A stretch of 64,000 nt of DNA from Cerasicoccus sp. TK19100 (GTDB taxonomy: Bacteria; Verrucomicrobiota; Verrucomicrobiia; Opitutales; Cerasicoccaceae): NCBI RefSeq assembly GCF_027257155.1, contig NZ_JAPWDU010000002.1, forward strand, positions 620,001-684,000. Direction: 5' to 3'. Of this stretch, positions 51,683 through 60,560 are shown piece after piece. The notes under the pieces were generated by a model. That model had not been told where the DNA came from and made no database searches. It saw only the letters and a program-made list of their open reading frames with translations. The position numbers and the translations under genes are program-made. Numbering within the stretch: the first letter of the stretch is position 1; each line of letters begins with the position of its first letter.

Positions 51683-52093
51683 ATGCTAAAACTGTCCGCC
51701 AGAGTCACGATCCCCGCGCACGAAATCCAGTGGAACATGGTGCGTGCGCAGGGTCCCGGTGGGCAGCACGTTAATAAAACCTCGACGGCAGTGCAGCTGT
51801 TTTTCGACATAAAGGCGTCCTCCCTGCCCGACTATTACAAGGAGCGGCTGCTCAAGCTGAATGACTACCGCATTACCGATGGCGGCAAGGTCGTCATCAA
51901 AGTACAGGACTCACGCTCACAGGAAGCGAATCGGCATCTGGCGCTGGAGCGACTGCGGTTATTCATCATGGACGCAATGAAGGTCGAAAAAAAGCGTCGC
52001 CCGACCAAGCCAACCCGCGGCTCGCAGAAGCGCCGGATCGAGAAGAAAAAGCAACAAGGCGAAAAGAAGGCGCTTCGCCGCAAGCTGGATTAA
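51683..52093 (+). CDS. arfB: Alternative ribosome-rescue factor ArfB (YaeJ-type)
   Basis: A 136-aa class I release-factor-like peptidyl-tRNA hydrolase that rescues stalled ribosomes. The GGQ motif (Gly26-Gly27-Gln28) lies in RAQGPGGQHVNKTSTAVQL, and the basic C-terminal tail (KKRRPTKPTRGSQKRRIEKKKQQGEKKALRRKLD in sections) is that needed for binding the mRNA channel. Domain 2 of normal release factors is absent. It overlaps the convergent response regulator gene by 4 bp. Confidence 0.95.
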   Translation: MLKLSARVTIPAHEIQWNMVRAQGPGGQHVNKTSTAVQLFFDIKASSLPDYYKERLLKLNDYRITDGGKVVIKVQDSRSQEANRHLALERLRLFIMDAMKVEKKRRPTKPTRGSQKRRIEKKKQQGEKKALRRKLD

Positions 52094-52737
52094 TTATCAA
52101 TTTGGGCGCTCTCGTCGATGTCCCAAAACCCTTGAGCAATACCATAGCGCATGAGCTCGGTAGTGGCGTGCAGCTCAAGTTTTTTCATGATGTTACGCCG
52201 ATGCCAGCGCACCGTCTTATCACTTAGATTGATCATCACACCGATGGTAGAGTCGTCCAAGCCCTTCGAAAATAATGGCAGCAGCTCCAGTTCCTTGTTG
52301 CTTAATATTTTGTGAAACGCTAAGGGATTCTTGCGTATCTCATCCCTGACTTGCGAGAAGGACTCCGAGAAATACGGTTCGCCGCGAGAAATCGCATCCA
52401 ACGCATCCATGACAGTTTCCAGCTCATCATTGAACTTATTGACGTATCCGTGCACGCCGGATTTCAACAATCGAAAAACTGTTACACTATCCAGCTTGGC
52501 AGATAGGGCTAAAACCCTTAATGATGACTGCTCCTCAATTAAAGTTTCCGCAACCGATATCCCATCCGGCTCAGGAATCCGAATATCCAACAACAGAATT
52601 TCAGGTTGAGTCGCACGGCATACGTCCAATGCTTCCTGACCACTTCCAGCCTCCCCCACGACCTCATATTTTTCGCTGCACATCTTAACGATCAACTGGC
52701 GGAATAAACTCTGGTCCTCAACAACGACAACTCTCAT
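52090..52737 (-). CDS. NarL/FixJ-type response regulator
   Basis: A 215-aa two-component regulator. The receiver (about 1-120) has the acidic pair Glu7-Asp8, phospho-acceptor Asp51 in LLLDIRIP, and a Lys at the KF position (VNKFND). The LuxR-type helix-turn-helix is at about 142-205 (LSNKELELLPLFSKGLDDSTIGVMINLSDKTVRWHRRNIMKKL). No kinase adjoins it, but the hybrid kinase at 56685 lacks an output domain, so the two are plausible partners. It is divergent from the TonB-dependent receptor across 67 bp and likely controls it. Confidence 0.9.
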   Translation of the reverse strand: MRVVVVEDQSLFRQLIVKMCSEKYEVVGEAGSGQEALDVCRATQPEILLLDIRIPEPDGISVAETLIEEQSSLRVLALSAKLDSVTVFRLLKSGVHGYVNKFNDELETVMDALDAISRGEPYFSESFSQVRDEIRKNPLAFHKILSNKELELLPLFSKGLDDSTIGVMINLSDKTVRWHRRNIMKKLELHATTELMRYGIAQGFWDIDESAQIDN

Positions 52738-52804: not shown

Positions 52805-55537
52805 ATGATTAAAAATTTTAACCTGCTAATCCGTATTTCAGCACTGCTGCCTCTCGTTGTGGGGCATTCAGGGCTACAAGGGCAGGAAGAATCCCCCGAC
52901 TACAGTGATTCAACCGAAGTCGATACACTTGAGCCAGTATACATGTTTGGGTCTCTTTTTACCCCTCATCAAGTCGACACTAAAGAGCCGATTACATTTC
53001 TATCCCCTGAAGACATAGAGTTGATGGGAGTTCAACGTCCCATCGAAGCCTTGCGCCTCCAACCGATGATGTTCGGTGCCATGAATACTGAAAATGACAG
53101 CAATGGCGGCACCGGATCGGCCTCGCCCAACATTCATGGCCTCGGCACGCTCCGCACATTAAACTTGATCAACGGACGGCGCGCTGGTGGCAACAGCGCC
53201 TTCAACCTGCAGCCTGGCGGCTTCGCCAACTACAACTTGATACCACAGGCTGCGATTGCCGGTATGGAAATCCTCCCCGAATCGGCGAGCACCACGTATG
53301 GCTCTGACGCCATAGCCGGCGCGATCAATGTGGACCTGATACGACGTTTTGAAGGAGTGCAGGTGTCCGGCCTTTACGGCGATACCACATCCGGCGGTGG
53401 CCAAACCCAACAGTATTCGCTCACCGGTGGCTTCTACCTCGACGAAGACACACACCTTACCCTCCTGGGAAGCTTTTACGATCAGCAGGTCATCTGGGCC
53501 AGAGACCGGAGCCTCTCTTCCACGACCGATTTCCGCTCCCGTGGGGGCACCAATCGCGGCAGCAGCACTTTCTCCGGGCGCGCAAATCTTCGCGTTGGCG
53601 GAAATCCGGTTCAGAGCGTCCTCGCACCCGGCGTCGATTTTCCCACATCCGGTGCAAGCTACGTCCCCTACAATCAGAGCACCGACGCATTTAACTACAA
53701 CCAGTATGCGCCGGTCATTCCCGCGTTGGAGATTGCCAATGGATACGCCGCGCTAGAGCACGAGTTGTCAGAACAGATAACGCTCTATGGCGACTTCCTC
53801 TACGCATACAGCAATCAAGACAACGGCCTGGCACCGGCCCCCTGGAGCGCATCGAATGCCCCTGGGCTGCTCACAGCGGTTCGCGCTAGCCCACATACGC
53901 CCGTGGCACCGACGGATGTGCTTGATGTTAGCTACCGCAATTTTGAAGAAGGTAACCTCCTGACGCAGTTCACGCGAAACGCCTTTCGCGTAGTGGGTGG
54001 CGCACGCGGGATTGTCGACGATCGCTGGGAATGGGACAGCGCGTTACTCTATACTCAAACCGATTTTAAAGCCAACATCAGCGGTATCTCCGACGCCAGG
54101 CTACTCATCCCCCATATCAATAGCGGGCTCTTCAACCCCTATGCGCGATCCGTCACGGGTGTGAATGGTGGCATTGCCTTTGATAACGCCACTGCGCTGA
54201 ACGCCGCTTCAATTAAGGCTCGAGACGAGTTCTACGAGAATCTGTTTTCCTATGACGCCACCGTTTCCGGTGAAGTCTTTAAACTTCCGGCAGGCAGTCT
54301 CACCAGCGCCGTCGGGGCAGAGATACGTTATGAAAGCATTGACGCCACCCCGGACCCGATCTGGGGAACCCGGCAAAACCTGGGGGGAACGGGATACGCC
54401 AGCCCGTTTTCCGGAAAGCGCGAAGTCTTTGCCTTGTTTAATGAAAACCGCATTCCGCTCATTTCCAGCGAGCAGAAGATTACTGGCATCCACCAGTTGG
54501 ACCTCAGCATCGGGCTGCGCTACGAAAATTTCTCCGATCAGGGCGACGATCCCATCACCAACCTGCAGGCCAATAACCGCTACGACAACTTTTCCTGGGA
54601 GGCCGCCATTCAGTTAAAGCCGATTGAGAGTGTCACGCTACGCGGTTCCTACAGCACTGGTTTCCGTGCCCCCACCTTGTTTGAATCCTACGCCAGCGAT
54701 GTTTTCGACTTTCCTATTTTGGTGGACCCAACCGGTGCCACTCCTCCCGGCACACCAATCCCAACACTGGTCCGAGGCAATCCCAACCTAGACCCGGAGA
54801 CCTCGCAGAGCTGGAATGCCTCCGCCGAATGGCAACCGGAACCTGTGCCCGGCCTCACGCTTCGCGCCACCTACTACTATGTAAATGTAGACGATGCTAT
54901 CGCCAATGGCGCACAATTCACCCTCGATAACGATCCCTCCAATGTCATTCGTCGGCCGGACGGAACCGTGGCTCTGGTTAACTCCAAATTTTTCAATGCC
55001 TCCAGCCTGACCACCCAAGGCATGGACTACACCATCGAGTATGAACGCCCATTGAGCACCGCAGTAAGCATGGTCACCACGCTGAGCGTGAACCAAGTTA
55101 TTTCGTACGAAGCGGTCGTGCCTGGCGTGGGAAACATCGACTTCGCTGGCAACTATATTGACAAGCGCTCCAATAATCTGAGCCCGGGCGCGATCCCAAA
55201 GTGGCGCGGTCTATACACGCTGTTTTTCTTTGTTTATGACGCTTCCCTTGGCGCTACGGTGCAATACATCGGCTCCTACAACGATGACTCAAGCTTTACC
55301 GCCGGTAACCAGCCGCGACGGGTGTCCGATTACGCAACACTCAACTTGGTAGCAACCTATGAGTTCAAGGATAGCGGCAGTGCCCTTCTCAACGGAAGCA
55401 CCGTTGCCATAGGGGTAGATAATGTCTTTAACAGCAGCCCCCCATTTGCCGCCGGTGCGTTTGCCGACGGCTACGACACGTCACTCTACTCGATTCAAAA
55501 CCGCTTCATCTACGGATCGATCAGTAAAAAGTTCTAA
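52805..55537 (+). CDS. TonB-dependent outer-membrane receptor
   Basis: A 910-aa outer-membrane receptor. After a signal peptide (ending near LQGQ, residue 27) comes a short linker that may hold the TonB box (TEVDTLEPVYMFG), the plug domain (about 60-180: IRPIEALRLQP-like block, ATYGSDAIAGAINVDL-type motif) and a 22-strand barrel ending in FIYGSISKKF with terminal Phe. It lacks the SusC N-terminal extension, and no SusD follows, so it is a stand-alone TBDR of the siderophore/peptide type. It is divergent from the response regulator and convergent with the YcaO gene (16 bp between stops). Its ligand may be the putative modified peptide or its metal complex (inference). Confidence 0.93.
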   Translation: MIKNFNLLIRISALLPLVVGHSGLQGQEESPDYSDSTEVDTLEPVYMFGSLFTPHQVDTKEPITFLSPEDIELMGVQRPIEALRLQPMMFGAMNTENDSNGGTGSASPNIHGLGTLRTLNLINGRRAGGNSAFNLQPGGFANYNLIPQAAIAGMEILPESASTTYGSDAIAGAINVDLIRRFEGVQVSGLYGDTTSGGGQTQQYSLTGGFYLDEDTHLTLLGSFYDQQVIWARDRSLSSTTDFRSRGGTNRGSSTFSGRANLRVGGNPVQSVLAPGVDFPTSGASYVPYNQSTDAFNYNQYAPVIPALEIANGYAALEHELSEQITLYGDFLYAYSNQDNGLAPAPWSASNAPGLLTAVRASPHTPVAPTDVLDVSYRNFEEGNLLTQFTRNAFRVVGGARGIVDDRWEWDSALLYTQTDFKANISGISDARLLIPHINSGLFNPYARSVTGVNGGIAFDNATALNAASIKARDEFYENLFSYDATVSGEVFKLPAGSLTSAVGAEIRYESIDATPDPIWGTRQNLGGTGYASPFSGKREVFALFNENRIPLISSEQKITGIHQLDLSIGLRYENFSDQGDDPITNLQANNRYDNFSWEAAIQLKPIESVTLRGSYSTGFRAPTLFESYASDVFDFPILVDPTGATPPGTPIPTLVRGNPNLDPETSQSWNASAEWQPEPVPGLTLRATYYYVNVDDAIANGAQFTLDNDPSNVIRRPDGTVALVNSKFFNASSLTTQGMDYTIEYERPLSTAVSMVTTLSVNQVISYEAVVPGVGNIDFAGNYIDKRSNNLSPGAIPKWRGLYTLFFFVYDASLGATVQYIGSYNDDSSFTAGNQPRRVSDYATLNLVATYEFKDSGSALLNGSTVAIGVDNVFNSSPPFAAGAFADGYDTSLYSIQNRFIYGSISKKF

Positions 55538-55553: not shown

Positions 55554-56441
55554 TTACCAAAAGAAATAGTCGGCTCTGTCGCTCGCGAATTCACGGTTCG
55601 GCTGCTCGTAGACCACGCGCCAAACGGTTACGTATTGATCCCAAGGCCCCTTAACCTTACGATCAATCAGGACTTTGGGCTTGGTGGACCATTTTCCAGC
55701 CGGACGGCTCTCCATGCGCTTGATTAATTCAGTGAACCCATCCGGACGCGAGTAGAACAATGCCCGCTTTTCAAACAAATGCTGCGACTGCTGGACATAT
55801 TCGAGATCAATGGACTCATGCTTTTGATAGTGTTCTTTAATGATGTTCGCCATGCGGTGCATTTCCACCGCTGCGCGCCAACAGGCATCCCCCTCTTTAT
55901 TCGCTAACCCGAAACCGTAAGTATAAAATCGCTCCTCCACGAATTGCCAGAGCAGTACCACCACATGGTCGCTGATAGGATTCTCCAATTGGATAGCGCG
56001 AATCCCTGGGTATGGATCGCCCAATGCAGTGTAGTCAAGATGCCCCTCCCACCACAGGATCAAAATATGGCGCTCAATTGCCTCACGCTCGGCCGACTGC
56101 CGGGCACCCTTGTCGAACAAACCTGGAAATGCGCCCATTCCATTTGAGGTCGGATCATAGTCAAAGCCGTATTCGCTGACGTTATTTAACTTACACTCAC
56201 GAAACGCCCACCTTTCCAGGGCTTCAGAGACGGCGCGAAACCTGGCAGTCGTCGGATCGGATGCGGAACCAACACCATCCGGATACGGCTGATCGATACG
56301 CAACTCATCCCGCAGGAAACCGGCTGCGGAATATTGCTCCCGTCCCAAAATTACCTCAATGCCGACCTCCATTGATTTGATCGGCCCTCCATCCTTGGAC
56401 ATGACATCCCGATATTTGATCGGGGCTAAGTTCATGTTCAT
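55554..56441 (-). CDS. Compact stand-alone YcaO-domain protein
   Basis: A 295-aa YcaO-superfamily protein, shorter than the usual 400 or more. The ATP-grasping motifs are present: SEALER (residues 72-77, from SDPTTARFRAVSEALERWAF), PTSNGMGA (97-104), REAIER (119-124) and GLANKEGDACWRAAVEMHRM. YcaO enzymes activate a peptide backbone amide with ATP to form azolines or thioamides in ribosomal peptides, or act on other amides. No partner E1-like protein, dehydrogenase or TfuA homologue is seen. The start is taken at ATG 56441 (another ATG at 56435); a TTG at 56489 would translate through a strong hairpin. A 39-codon ORF with Shine-Dalgarno sequence lies directly upstream on the same strand. Confidence 0.82.
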   Translation of the reverse strand: MNMNLAPIKYRDVMSKDGGPIKSMEVGIEVILGREQYSAAGFLRDELRIDQPYPDGVGSASDPTTARFRAVSEALERWAFRECKLNNVSEYGFDYDPTSNGMGAFPGLFDKGARQSAEREAIERHILILWWEGHLDYTALGDPYPGIRAIQLENPISDHVVVLLWQFVEERFYTYGFGLANKEGDACWRAAVEMHRMANIIKEHYQKHESIDLEYVQQSQHLFEKRALFYSRPDGFTELIKRMESRPAGKWSTKPKVLIDRKVKGPWDQYVTVWRVVYEQPNREFASDRADYFFW

Positions 56442-56456
56442 AGTATTAAACAATAA

Positions 56457-56487
56457 GCGTGCCGCTTCCGACAGGAAAGCGACACGC
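56457..56487 (-). terminator. Hairpin between the small ORF and the YcaO gene (attenuator candidate)
   Basis: On the minus strand GCGTGTCGCTTTCC, loop TGTC, GGAAGCGGCACGC with one mismatch and one bulge, followed by TTATTGTTTAAT. The tail is T-rich but interrupted, which suggests partial termination, leaving the small ORF transcribed more than YcaO. The YcaO ATG lies 16 bp beyond it. Confidence 0.6.
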
Positions 56488-56525: not shown

Positions 56526-56645
56526 CTAAACTTCGCAGGGGTATGAGGGCCAAGCCTTCGTTTGCATTTTATCCATCGAAGACTGAGAGCGGAGCCCAAC
56601 GTTGTAAGTAATCGTTGAGATAATGGATACTATTGCTTTTTTCAT
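56526..56645 (-). CDS. 39-aa ORF, putative precursor peptide for the YcaO enzyme
   Basis: This ORF is too short for routine gene calls. It starts with ATG 56645, preceded by TAAGGA at the Shine-Dalgarno position, which is rare among neighbouring genes. The product begins MKKAIVSIISTITYNVGLR, has a Ser/Met-rich middle, and ends KAWPSYPCEV followed by TAG. The N-terminal part could be a leader and the C-terminal part, with Trp, Pro, Ser, Tyr and a single Cys37, a core. A YcaO target would be Cys37, Ser34 or a nearby backbone amide. The gene is followed by an attenuator-like hairpin and the YcaO gene, the usual order in ribosomal peptide clusters. It could instead be a chance ORF or a leader peptide; no homologue is known to me. 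Confidence 0.55.
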   Translation of the reverse strand: MKKAIVSIISTITYNVGLRSQSSMDKMQTKAWPSYPCEV

Positions 56646-56684
56646 GATTCCTTAGTTACTTGATATTAACGAAGTAATCCCGTT

Positions 56685-59600
56685 TTGAGATCACAACTTA
56701 GCATAATCGAAAACTTGAAAATACTCCAAGTATTCAAACCCCTCAAATTTGGGTGGTTCGCTTTAATATTATTCTATTCTGTAGTCTGTGTAGAAGCTGA
56801 GCTAATCGGCTCTCCTCCCATCAAAACTTACACGCCCAACGAATACTTGGCCAAAGGGCACAACTGGGCCTTCACCCAAGACCGCGAAGGCCGAATTTAC
56901 ACCGGAAACGACGCAGGAATACTGCAGTATGATGGTGTCAATTGGCGCTTATTTCCTCTGCCTTTCAGCATTTTCGACTTATTCTATGATTCTGAAAATC
57001 GTATCTGGGTGTCAGGTGTTAATGCGATGGGATATGTCGAGTTACAATCCGGAGTAATGTCGAAATACGTCCCGGTGGCAGAGGAAATCCACCAGGACTT
57101 AGGTGAGATTTGGAACATCACCAAAATAGGCAATACCATCTATGGCACCGCCCAAGGCAGCATCATCGAATATGATGGCAAAAACCTCACACGTCACAAC
57201 CTGCCAAACACGAACCGCCTGACCAGTGCAACTGATCAGCAAGCGCTCTACATCAGCCAAAATGAAATCGGCTTACATATCTTAAAACCCGGCGAAGAAA
57301 TGGTAACCATTACCGGGGGCAAAGCAGACGTTGCCAGGGTCCACTCTGAATTCATCTCCGCACAAGGCACACACATTTTTGCAACATTTCGGAACGGCTT
57401 GCTAGAGCTAAAGGACGACGCTCTCGTCCCTTGGAATCACGAGCTGCAAGAGCTGCTAAACGGAACGAACTGCTATAAATCGCTACAATTAGACGACGGC
57501 AGGATACTCATCGCAACCCACCAATCAGGCGTCTTGCTAATCTCTCCCGATGGCGAATCTTTAGGCCAAATTACCGAGGAAGACGGCCTGCTCAGTAACT
57601 TCGTCATCAACATGTTTCAGGATATGGACGGCTCGATTTGGATTGCGCATGAGATCGGTCTTAGCCTGCTCGACCTGCTTTCGCCTTACACCATTTTGAA
57701 TGAACGCAACGGCCTGGCCACGAATATTGTTTACAGCCTGGAACAACAGGATAACCGGCTTCTGGCTGGCACGGCAAATGGGTGCATGGAATTCGAACCA
57801 CCTACCGAAAATAACCTTAATGGCTCATGGAAGCTCTTGGGCGAGGAGAACTCGGGTATTTGGCACATCGCCAAGACATCTCGCGGTCCATTGATTGCAG
57901 AGAATGACGGCTTCGGTCTCCTTACCGAAAATCAGCTAAAGACGGTTCTCTCCCTTGGCCATGAAGGCATCTATGCCACCACTATCACCCATAACGATCA
58001 GGAGTATATCCTGGCCACACAACGGCGCCAGTTGCATATTTGCCAATGGCAAGGCCAAGAGCTGCTGGTCCGTAAATCAATCGATGCCCCGGGCCCGCTC
58101 TGGACGATTGTTAACTTTGAAGATGAGGTCTATCTGGGCTCAGTGGCCAACGGCGTGCTGAGAGTAAGCCAAGAGGCGTTCTTCTCCGATGAGCCTGTAT
58201 TACTGGATAGCTTTCTGGACAGCCTCACGAATGCGCAATCATGGGGCTACTTCATCAAGCTTGCGCGCGGCGTTGTACTCCTGACTAATTCTGGCCTCCA
58301 TTACCGGGCCAACAACAGCGACGACTGGCAACGCGTCCCGGGCAGCCCCAAAACATATGGGGCCAATCCGTATGCCGTCAATTTTTACCAAAGCTCAGAT
58401 TCGAAGCTGTGGATCAGCTACCTAGAGGACAAAGGCTATCAGTTTGCTCAAGTGAACTGGTCGGAAGACTCCCTCCGACCATTAGTGAGCCGCATACCCG
58501 TGGAAGGCTTGAAAGAGCTCAACGAAATCCACAGCCTACTTGTCGATGAAGATACTTCGGTTGCTTGGTTTGGCGGCAGTGGTGGGATCGTGCGCGAAAG
58601 GAGCGTGGGTAGCAAACCAGACTATTCAGAACGCGCTCCCATCATCACCGACTCCGAAATCGCTGGGCAAAGCACCGGCACTCGCAACGAATTTAAATTC
58701 CCGGTAAAGCTGGCCACATTTAACTTTGCGCTACCATACTACGGTGCCAAGGAGGTTTCCTATCGCACACGCATGGCGGGCCAAAGTGACGACTGGAGCC
58801 AAGCGACGACCAACACCTTCAAAGAGTTCACAAACTTGGCCGAGGGCGAGTATGCATTCCAGGTCCAGGCCCTACTCGATGGCGTTCCCCTGCCCTCTAT
58901 CGCGAGTCATTCATTCCGCATCCTCCCCCCTTGGTATCGCACTTGGGGCGCGTTTATTCTTTATCTACTTGGTGCGATTGCCTTGGCCTACTTGCTGGTT
59001 TATTTCCGCACCCGCAGCCTGCAACGAGCCAATGTGATGCTGGAAGAAGCCGTCCGCAACCGGACCGTCGAATTGGAAAAAACCAACGTCAGGCTCGCCC
59101 AGGCCAATACCGCAAAAAACCGCTTCCTGGCAAATGTCAGCCATGAGATTCGCAACCCCATGAATGGGATCGTGGGCCTGGCGCATCTACTGCTCGAAGA
59201 TGGCCGGCCAGCCGAAAAGCGGCGACTCACCCACCTGCTCAGTACATCAGAGCACCTGAAGGTGCTGCTTGATGGCTTATTGGATTTTGCCGCAATCGAG
59301 AATGGACAGGTCCGCCTGCAAAAGACGACCTTTTCCCTGGAGACGCTCTTGGACGAGCTCGAATCACTACACCAGCGCCTCGCACTAGACAAAGGCATCG
59401 AGCTAATCGTTGAAAAACGCTTTGAAAGTTGCCCCGAACTTTATGGAGACGTGGGTAAGCTACGGCAAATCCTCTACAATCTAACCTCCAACGCCATCAA
59501 GTTTACCGGCGAAGGCAGCGTCACCGTTCGTGCCTTTACCCAACACGATAAGAGCCACAACAAAACCGAGCTGTATTTCGAAATCGAAGACACCGGCAAT

Positions 59601-60560
59601 GGCATTCGCCCGGAAGACCAAAAGCGCATCTTTGAGCAATTCAATCGGGGCGCGAATACCAATTCGCAAATCAAAGGCATCGGCTTGGGCCTATCCATCG
59701 CGGATCGCCTGGCCAAGCTGCTCGACGGAGCCTTGGAGCTAGATACCCAATACGACAATGGGGCGCGCTTCACTCTGCGCCTTCAGTTACCCTTTGCCGA
59801 CCAGAGCACCTCACCCGAGAACGGGGACGACTCCAGTTGCGCAGAAAGCCTGAAGGGTTTGCAGGCTTTGGTTATTGAAGATGAGTCATATAACCAAATC
59901 GTGGTCGAAGGACTACTCAAACGCGAATCCGTAAAAGTGACGCTGGCGAGCTCTGCCGAAGAAGGCATCAAGGAATTCGTCAAGCACAACTGGGACTTCG
60001 TGCTGGTGGATATCAACCTGCCCGGAGCCAGCGGTATTGAATTCGCACGCATGGTTCGCGATGCCGCTGAAAAAGCAGAAACACCGCTGATCGCGATGAG
60101 CGCCTATGTTGCCGACTTTGACCGGGAGGAAATGATCAAGGCCGGCATCACCGGTTTCGTCCCCAAACCATTTACACCGGAAGAGCTCACCAATGCCATC
60201 CAGGCTAAAACCCAATCAGCCTTACCTAGCCTGACGAAAGCGAAGAAGGATAAGGTATCGCTCATGAAATACATTGCCGGGGATGACGCCAACAGGCTCA
60301 AAGATCTTCAAAAAGAATTACACGAGAGCCTTCAGAGTTATTGCGAGAAATTGACCAAAGCCATGCAGTCCAACGACCTTGAGAGCGCCCGATTGCTCCT
60401 CCACGACATGGCACCGCTGATCCGGCTAACACAGGACGACCACCTGATCCACTTGACCGAAACCCTACATAATCTCGTGCACGAGGGTGACTTTAAAGGA
60501 TTCGAGCAGGTTTTTGCTGAATTCGTATCCGAGTGCGGCAAACTGGCACCGGAGGAGTAA
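56685..60560 (+). CDS. Hybrid sensor histidine kinase with beta-propeller sensor, receiver and Hpt-like domain
   Basis: A 1291-aa membrane sensor. After an N-terminal signal helix (about 22-37) comes a large exported sensor with propeller repeats (TQDREGRIYTGNDAGILQYDG; MFQDMDGSIWIAHEIGLSLLD) and a Y_Y_Y domain (about 690-745). One membrane helix (about 755-775) leads to a coiled coil, HisKA with His820 in ANVSHEIRNPMNG, HATPase (TSNAIKFTGEG; DTGNGIRPEDQKRIFEQF; GIGLGLSIADRLAKLL), a receiver with Asp1109 in LVDINLPGASG, and an Hpt-like bundle (LLLHDMAPLIRL). There is no DNA-binding domain, unlike classical hybrid two-component sugar sensors, so a separate regulator such as 52090 is needed. 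The start is TTG 56685 (or TTG 56715); no early ATG. It is divergent from the small ORF with only 40 bp between. Confidence 0.88.
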   Translation: MRSQLSIIENLKILQVFKPLKFGWFALILFYSVVCVEAELIGSPPIKTYTPNEYLAKGHNWAFTQDREGRIYTGNDAGILQYDGVNWRLFPLPFSIFDLFYDSENRIWVSGVNAMGYVELQSGVMSKYVPVAEEIHQDLGEIWNITKIGNTIYGTAQGSIIEYDGKNLTRHNLPNTNRLTSATDQQALYISQNEIGLHILKPGEEMVTITGGKADVARVHSEFISAQGTHIFATFRNGLLELKDDALVPWNHELQELLNGTNCYKSLQLDDGRILIATHQSGVLLISPDGESLGQITEEDGLLSNFVINMFQDMDGSIWIAHEIGLSLLDLLSPYTILNERNGLATNIVYSLEQQDNRLLAGTANGCMEFEPPTENNLNGSWKLLGEENSGIWHIAKTSRGPLIAENDGFGLLTENQLKTVLSLGHEGIYATTITHNDQEYILATQRRQLHICQWQGQELLVRKSIDAPGPLWTIVNFEDEVYLGSVANGVLRVSQEAFFSDEPVLLDSFLDSLTNAQSWGYFIKLARGVVLLTNSGLHYRANNSDDWQRVPGSPKTYGANPYAVNFYQSSDSKLWISYLEDKGYQFAQVNWSEDSLRPLVSRIPVEGLKELNEIHSLLVDEDTSVAWFGGSGGIVRERSVGSKPDYSERAPIITDSEIAGQSTGTRNEFKFPVKLATFNFALPYYGAKEVSYRTRMAGQSDDWSQATTNTFKEFTNLAEGEYAFQVQALLDGVPLPSIASHSFRILPPWYRTWGAFILYLLGAIALAYLLVYFRTRSLQRANVMLEEAVRNRTVELEKTNVRLAQANTAKNRFLANVSHEIRNPMNGIVGLAHLLLEDGRPAEKRRLTHLLSTSEHLKVLLDGLLDFAAIENGQVRLQKTTFSLETLLDELESLHQRLALDKGIELIVEKRFESCPELYGDVGKLRQILYNLTSNAIKFTGEGSVTVRAFTQHDKSHNKTELYFEIEDTGNGIRPEDQKRIFEQFNRGANTNSQIKGIGLGLSIADRLAKLLDGALELDTQYDNGARFTLRLQLPFADQSTSPENGDDSSCAESLKGLQALVIEDESYNQIVVEGLLKRESVKVTLASSAEEGIKEFVKHNWDFVLVDINLPGASGIEFARMVRDAAEKAETPLIAMSAYVADFDREEMIKAGITGFVPKPFTPEELTNAIQAKTQSALPSLTKAKKDKVSLMKYIAGDDANRLKDLQKELHESLQSYCEKLTKAMQSNDLESARLLLHDMAPLIRLTQDDHLIHLTETLHNLVHEGDFKGFEQVFAEFVSECGKLAPEE

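Follow-up and report, generated by a model that had tools for sequence, protein, structure and literature searches.

A short gene upstream of a divergent ycaO in Cerasicoccus, probable precursor of a ribosomally made, YcaO-modified peptide

A short reading frame upstream of ycaO

In the genome of Cerasicoccus sp. TK19100, an unannotated open reading frame (ORF) of 39 codons immediately precedes a small, divergent ycaO gene on the same strand. Is it a gene at all and, if so, what does its product do beside such an enzyme? The locus was analysed within a stretch of 64,000 nucleotides (NZ_JAPWDU010000002.1, positions 620,001 to 684,000), hereafter the window, whose numbering is used below. Its central elements are:

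56526..56645, minus strand: probable precursor-peptide gene, 39 amino acids plus stop, supported by conservation in place and purifying selection
56457..56487, minus strand: hairpin with a 13-bp stem (-21.1 kcal/mol) and TTATTGTTTA after it, in the space between precursor gene and ycaO, candidate attenuator
55554..56441, minus strand: small standalone YcaO-fold enzyme, 295 amino acids, likely start ATG 56441
56649..56653, minus strand: AAGGA, Shine-Dalgarno-like, 3 nt from the ATG, not conserved and probably incidental

The extent and length proposed by a sequence-only reading (56526-56645, 39 codons) match the ORF listing exactly; the strand, missing there, is minus. The listed peptide, read from an ATG at 56645 down to 56526, comprises 39 amino acids, MKKAIVSIISTITYNVGLRSQSSMDKMQTKAWPSYPCEV. 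Among its last nine residues, AWPSYPCEV, Pro occurs twice and Cys, Trp and Tyr once each, in agreement with the sequence-only reading.

The genus sample consisted of four Cerasicoccus genomes including that of the window, and ycaO was present in all of them. The 39-codon frame was likewise intact and in place in 4/4 (the window's own and three others), and neither indels nor stop codons, the counter-evidence named by the sequence-only reading, were encountered in these close relatives. A fifth copy of 40 codons occurred upstream of ycaO in G004, a genome from another genus of the same family, Cerasicoccaceae. Protein identities of the other four Cerasicoccaceae copies to the window copy were 54, 64, 49 and 41%, and nucleotide identity ranged from 50 to 68% among the four Cerasicoccus copies. 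Codon substitutions over homologous loci, which that reading had suggested as a check, indicated purifying selection: pooled pN/pS over the four Cerasicoccus copies was 0.44, a value as low being reached by 0/2000 column shuffles (shuffled mean 1.0), and differences at codon positions 1, 2 and 3 amounted to 83, 65 and 144, respectively. Since these measures agree and the frame is kept in relatives, the window ORF is a protein-coding gene under purifying selection, and there is strong support for the proposal that ycaO is directly preceded by a genuine small gene missing from the annotation. A chance reading frame between genes, for which its shortness, lack of annotation and weak Shine-Dalgarno sequence might plead, is extremely improbable in view of the pN/pS value and of five genomes keeping the frame intact at the same place. 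Eight precursors, that of the window included, were scanned against Pfam and NCBIfam, and no match exceeded the model cut-off.

The Shine-Dalgarno sequence itself was of no help. An AAGGA does occur just ahead of the ATG, its end 3 nt before the start, and most starts of the window do lack such a sequence, as had been remarked (a 5-base Shine-Dalgarno-like motif preceded only 2/38 long non-overlapping ORFs). Yet the motif is uninformative as an argument for a gene, since 3.2% of all 2106 ATGs of the window also display it, a background level, and copies in relatives are devoid of AAGGA. It was consequently rejected as coding evidence.

A small enzyme with the YcaO fold

ATG 56441 was preferred as start of ycaO over TTG 56489, which was rejected because it lies upstream of the hairpin, the latter thus falling between both codons, and because homologues begin with MNLAP or similar. 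At the sequence level, the enzyme was only just recognizable: its match to the Pfam YcaO model (22.7 bits) remained under the cut-off of 25.7, which some of its relatives exceeded, and NCBIfam provided no match for it. Profile searches of PDB sequences with YcaO alignments found nothing either, the relation being visible in folds only. The AlphaFold2 model, built with 76 sequences, displayed a mean pLDDT of 94.7 and a pTM of 0.90. The top nine Foldseek matches (E <= 0.001) were all archaeal YcaO structures. With VIA-align, whose result covers only families on the VIA list, the 14 best rows were all YcaO-fold proteins, led by microcin B17 synthetase chain D (Z 16.9) and ending with TruD (Z 9.9), and the next, unrelated row came at Z 6.0. 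Two ExxER motifs were found, each residue being present in at least 75/76 sequences, together with a conserved FFW-like C-terminal ending; we take the ExxER residues to be tied to the ATP/nucleotide-binding glutamates of YcaO enzymes. As modelled, the downstream gene encodes a small YcaO enzyme without visible extra domain.

Precursor-ycaO loci in Opitutales

A scan of genome contigs confirmed 83 YcaO relatives, and 80 loci were kept, nearly all of which are labelled Opitutales, Opitutaceae or Verrucomicrobia. YcaO relatives occurred in 41/372 sampled genomes of the order and in 14/387 of the phylum, all of the latter belonging to the same order. Both parts of the anatomy of YcaO-dependent RiPPs were found: an enzyme with YcaO fold and twice ExxER and, next to it, a precursor with conserved leader and variable core, a precursor-like ORF being detected at 72/74 ycaO loci of the subfamily (those with at least 300 nt upstream). 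The exceptions by profile were L097 and L099. At L097, an ORF of another type lies between about 300 and 20 nt ahead of ycaO, and the repeat LAWEQPPGVPPxPGGGIIIK occurs twice in it. L099 corresponds to a YcaO relative in a Bacteriovoracaceae genome, with neither precursor nor kinase; transfer or another role of this YcaO is possible.

In all, 83 peptides were collected, including five added by position (three Cerasicoccus loci, the window and L016). The wider-family profile was based on 57 seeds picked from ORFs upstream of ycaO, so that there is some circularity in its specificity. About 21 other precursors are non-seeds, one of which (L044 7512-7637) is located downstream of ycaO. A match under E 0.01 at L061 2063-2242 was discarded as unrelated.

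Direct similarity of the window ORF to this wider profile was non-significant (6.3 bits, E = 6), and when 12,653 short ORFs were searched with a profile of the five Cerasicoccaceae ORFs, no member beyond these five came below E 0.01. Seven of the first 12 non-member matches of the five-ORF profile were nonetheless peptides from upstream of ycaO, against about 0.07 expected by simple proportion. Outside matches were found in Coraliomargarita (L033, E 0.071; L027, E 1.3) and in uncultured Opitutales (L031, E 0.73), as well as at L100 (E 1.5), where a PPTWPC string is the same as in C. frondis. Once a paralogue from G004 (see below) was added to the profile, a Coraliomargarita copy in L018 was reached at E 0.0027, in a smaller set. 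As the window ORF resembles other members only weakly in direct comparison, its connection to the wider family is based on position, intermediates and rank enrichment. With location and partner genes in common, it is likely, though not proven, to be homologous to the wider precursor family. It belongs to a family of small Opitutales peptides by position and, more weakly, by sequence.

Leader and core

Two parts were distinguished in the window peptide:

56559..56645, minus strand: leader, residues 1-29, with the TxxYNxGxR motif of Cerasicoccaceae copies, from alignment, also with the wider family
56529..56558, minus strand: presumed core, residues 30-39, KAWPSYPCEV, of inferred extent

These parts evolve differently. 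Most of the 83 peptides have a common leader of the type MK...R..LG..SSLLL..GF.RAA.RLDP, and across the wider family the C-terminus is variable, rich in Pro-Cys (CxxPC) and sometimes arranged in tandem repeats. Cys was present in 74/83 presumed cores and absent from 9/83; PC occurred in 50/83 (shuffled mean 12, maximum 21) and CxxPC in 24/83 (shuffled mean 0.5, maximum 3). Core repeats were observed at L089, L088, L093, L061 and L045, and several loci, e.g. L047, L051 and L036, have two precursors. The precursor at L089 6093-6323 displays three DTCTWPCED repeats and reached 19.8 bits with TIGR04114 (Cys-rich repeat), whose cut-off is 20. Cerasicoccus cores follow the pattern P-[ST]-x-P-[CT]-E-V, in which one position is occupied by either Cys or Thr, and the P-[ST] and P-[CT] pairs are retained in all four copies. 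Such a pattern would suit a YcaO substrate, without proving it.

A hydropathy of 2.0 over 12 residues was reached by 58/83 leaders versus 3.3% of 4813 background ORFs, the family median being 2.38, and 45/52 AA-type sites had A, T, V or S at -3, as in signal peptides. These features point to a likely Sec signal in the wider family. For the window's own peptide it is doubtful, since hydropathy is lower in Cerasicoccaceae leaders (0.81-1.57, the window member at 1.55) than in the others.

Partner genes

Three neighbours of the precursor-ycaO pair are relevant here:

56685..60560, plus strand: divergent hybrid histidine kinase (Reg_prop, Y_Y_Y, HisKA, HATPase, receiver), conserved neighbour
52805..55537, plus strand: TonB-dependent receptor, convergent with ycaO, family co-occurrence
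52090..52737, minus strand: LuxR-type response regulator, conserved partner

The true start of the kinase may lie downstream of the listed TTG. Among the 67 loci with enough room, a divergent hybrid kinase was found at 65, i.e. 60 under the strict definition (ORF of at least 700 amino acids beginning no more than 900 nt from ycaO) plus five split or overrun ORFs, L039 and L099 being without; tblastn with other limits yielded 62/71. A LuxR-type response regulator was nearby at 51/57 loci. Scanned kinases displayed Reg_prop, Y_Y_Y, HisKA, HATPase and receiver domains, some of them also Hpt, and scanned regulators a receiver and a LuxR-type HTH. The TonB receptor was near ycaO at only 4/57 loci (those with at least 3 kb downstream). 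Within Cerasicoccaceae, an orthologue of it was present in 6/6 genomes with ycaO and in 0/4 without, and it adjoins the regulator even where unlinked from ycaO. The conserved partners are thus the hybrid kinase, the response regulator and, in Cerasicoccaceae, also the TonB receptor.

G004 further harbours a second precursor paralogue (E 6.5e-7; L189 6844-6960, i.e. G004:C1:3736843-3736959, minus strand). It is located away from ycaO, with a TonB receptor (59% to that of the window) and a response regulator (57-58%) nearby. No dedicated exporter, protease, immunity gene or YcaO partner was found among the clusters of ORFs that recur in the flanks (up to 6.5 kb), as judged from scanned representatives.

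Two minor observations were made in these surroundings. At 13 loci, including L030, L048, L054, L056, L066, L072, L083, L094 and L098, a HATPase-domain protein (a second kinase-like gene) is encoded just downstream of ycaO. In C. frondis, the contig ends L208 (C13) and L024 (C6) both contain AGAGCACTTTTCATCTAGATTGGCCGA, which suggests that AGAGCACTTTTCATCTAGATTGGCCGA is a repeat at the break between TonB receptor and ycaO.

Possible functions of the peptide

We consider it highly probable that the window ORF codes for a precursor from which a YcaO-modified (RiPP-like) peptide of ribosomal origin is derived, and the 39-residue product is most likely the substrate of the adjacent enzyme. The YcaO enzyme would activate amides of the peptide backbone in the C-terminal core, the conserved Pro-Cys/Thr/Ser positions being its probable sites. 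The leader would serve for recognition and, in most members, would also be Sec-signal-like, the mature peptide presumably leaving the cytoplasm. The two-component system would regulate the pathway and may sense its product.

The gene had previously been called the leader gene of the YcaO transcript. Position and strand agree with this designation; precursor is nevertheless a better reading than regulatory leader. As a regulatory leader peptide (uORF), the ORF would govern by its translation the read-through of a hairpin, much as in amino-acid attenuation, the peptide itself being without role. A terminator-like hairpin does separate the two genes, and each of the four remaining Cerasicoccaceae copies has one in the same position (-21.0 to -30.4), comparable ones also occurring in Coraliomargarita and in L089, L088 and L093. 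This conservation favours a uORF, though covariation of the hairpin is weak, its score (pair counts, three Cerasicoccus copies) being reached by 61/500 shuffles. Yet selection acts on the peptide sequence, the C-termini display Pro-Cys motifs and tandem repeats instead of runs of one regulatory codon, the second G004 copy is not adjacent to ycaO, and at many other loci the precursor stop is only 3-45 nt from ycaO, which leaves no room for such a hairpin spacer. A uORF is therefore very improbable. For a precursor, the hairpin ahead of ycaO could set a ratio, the peptide being made in excess of the enzyme.

Two other roles concern the modified product. It might be a metallophore, binding copper or another metal outside the cell and re-entering through the TonB receptor while the kinase senses the supply of metal, in a methanobactin-like outline. 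Cys-rich cores fit this scheme, as do the receptor, which adjoins ycaO in the window and follows its distribution within Cerasicoccaceae, and the G004 paralogue beside a receptor. Nevertheless, the receptor's scarcity near ycaO in the wider set (4/57) and the replacement of Cys by Thr in 2/4 Cerasicoccus copies, which have no other core Cys, make it unlikely. The methanobactin precursor is modified by MbnB/MbnC-type enzymes, none of which was found among scanned neighbours. Known antibiotic RiPPs combine variable cores with YcaO chemistry, and the between-species core variability recorded here, along with the YcaO enzyme, would suit a bacteriocin or antibiotic directed against competitors, the two-component system merely timing its production. 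The recurrent partners are, however, a kinase and a regulator, with no exporter or immunity gene among recurrent neighbours, so that we regard an antibiotic as somewhat unlikely.

To return to the modified-peptide precursor, its gene neighbourhood suggests that the YcaO-modified peptide is wired to a two-component system and is perhaps an autoinducing signal. More specifically, but tentatively, it could be a pheromone of these Gram-negative Opitutales that would be exported, returned by TonB uptake where present and sensed by the kinase propeller, whereupon the LuxR-type regulator would activate the same operon. The near-constant pairing with a sensor kinase makes these loci suitable for testing whether Gram-negative bacteria use a modified peptide as a signal.

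Relation to known systems

The archaeal YcaO proteins giving the best Foldseek matches (PDB 6ci7, 6cib, 6peu and 6pe3) share the standalone YcaO fold at an identity of about 13-16%. They thioamidate methyl-CoM reductase, a large enzyme, whereas the substrate is probably a small peptide here. McbD of microcin B17 (6gos, 6gri) and heterocyclases (4v1v) have the same fold (VIA Z 15-17), and their substrates likewise have Cys/Ser/Thr-containing cores. Azoline-forming YcaO enzymes of this kind act with partner proteins or domains; in contrast, no such gene recurs at Opitutales loci. LAP clusters include an E1-like partner and often a flavin dehydrogenase, neither of which was found among window neighbours or scanned representatives of recurrent flanking clusters. 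Nisin is autoinducing, and its RiPP genes are tied to a two-component system, a linkage resembling that of the Opitutales loci, in which the product may be sensed. Unlike the latter, where none recurs, nisin has dedicated export, protease and immunity genes.

In thioamidated RiPPs, according to PMC8120280, YcaO is paired with an adjacent TfuA; domain scans of the neighbours gave no TfuA match. The streptamidine family of standalone-YcaO RiPPs, mined around ycaO genes in Actinobacteria and six Firmicutes according to the main text of PMC8442711, resembles ours by a short, mostly unannotated precursor beside a standalone YcaO. As far as that text describes it, it differs in leader, in the CxxPC core and in the kinase/regulator partners of Opitutales loci, and a term search of the same main text returned no Verrucomicrobia, Opitutales or histidine kinases. 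As described in PMC12452194, bufferins and further RiPPs modified by MNIO enzymes share Sec-like signal peptides, rare among bacterial RiPPs, and Cys motifs in their precursors. Their MNIO enzymes, mostly with partner proteins, contrast with the YcaO found here, which has no recurrent partner. In the portion of the open-licence literature consulted on YcaO, RiPPs, Opitutales/Verrucomicrobia and peptide signalling, no description of this precursor-YcaO family was found. The Opitutales family, beside its sensor-kinase gene, is apparently undescribed; compact, RiPP-like and with a leader and core of its own type, it is an addition to a phylum seldom named in the RiPP literature consulted.

Elements upstream of the precursor gene

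One conserved stretch precedes the precursor gene of the window:

56676..56694, minus strand: GTGATCTCAAAACGGGATT, upstream of the precursor gene, kept in C. frondis and, almost unchanged, in C. maritimus

From its conservation, GTGATCTCAAAACGGGATT is a possible promoter or operator. In the wider family, a palindrome TACC-N8-GGTA was found upstream of precursor genes in 26/74 regions versus 0.04 expected (Markov mean), e.g. at -65 in L046 and L084 and at -109, -87 and -65 in L070; in some upstream regions, it is thus arranged in tandem, 22 nt apart. The palindrome may be a site of a wider regulon, since it was not found in that form in the window's own upstream region and copies elsewhere lie near other genes. 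A narrower form occurred in 1-8 copies per genome in 9/10 MAGs searched, and by eye other copies were seen near regulators and TonB-receptor-like ORFs.
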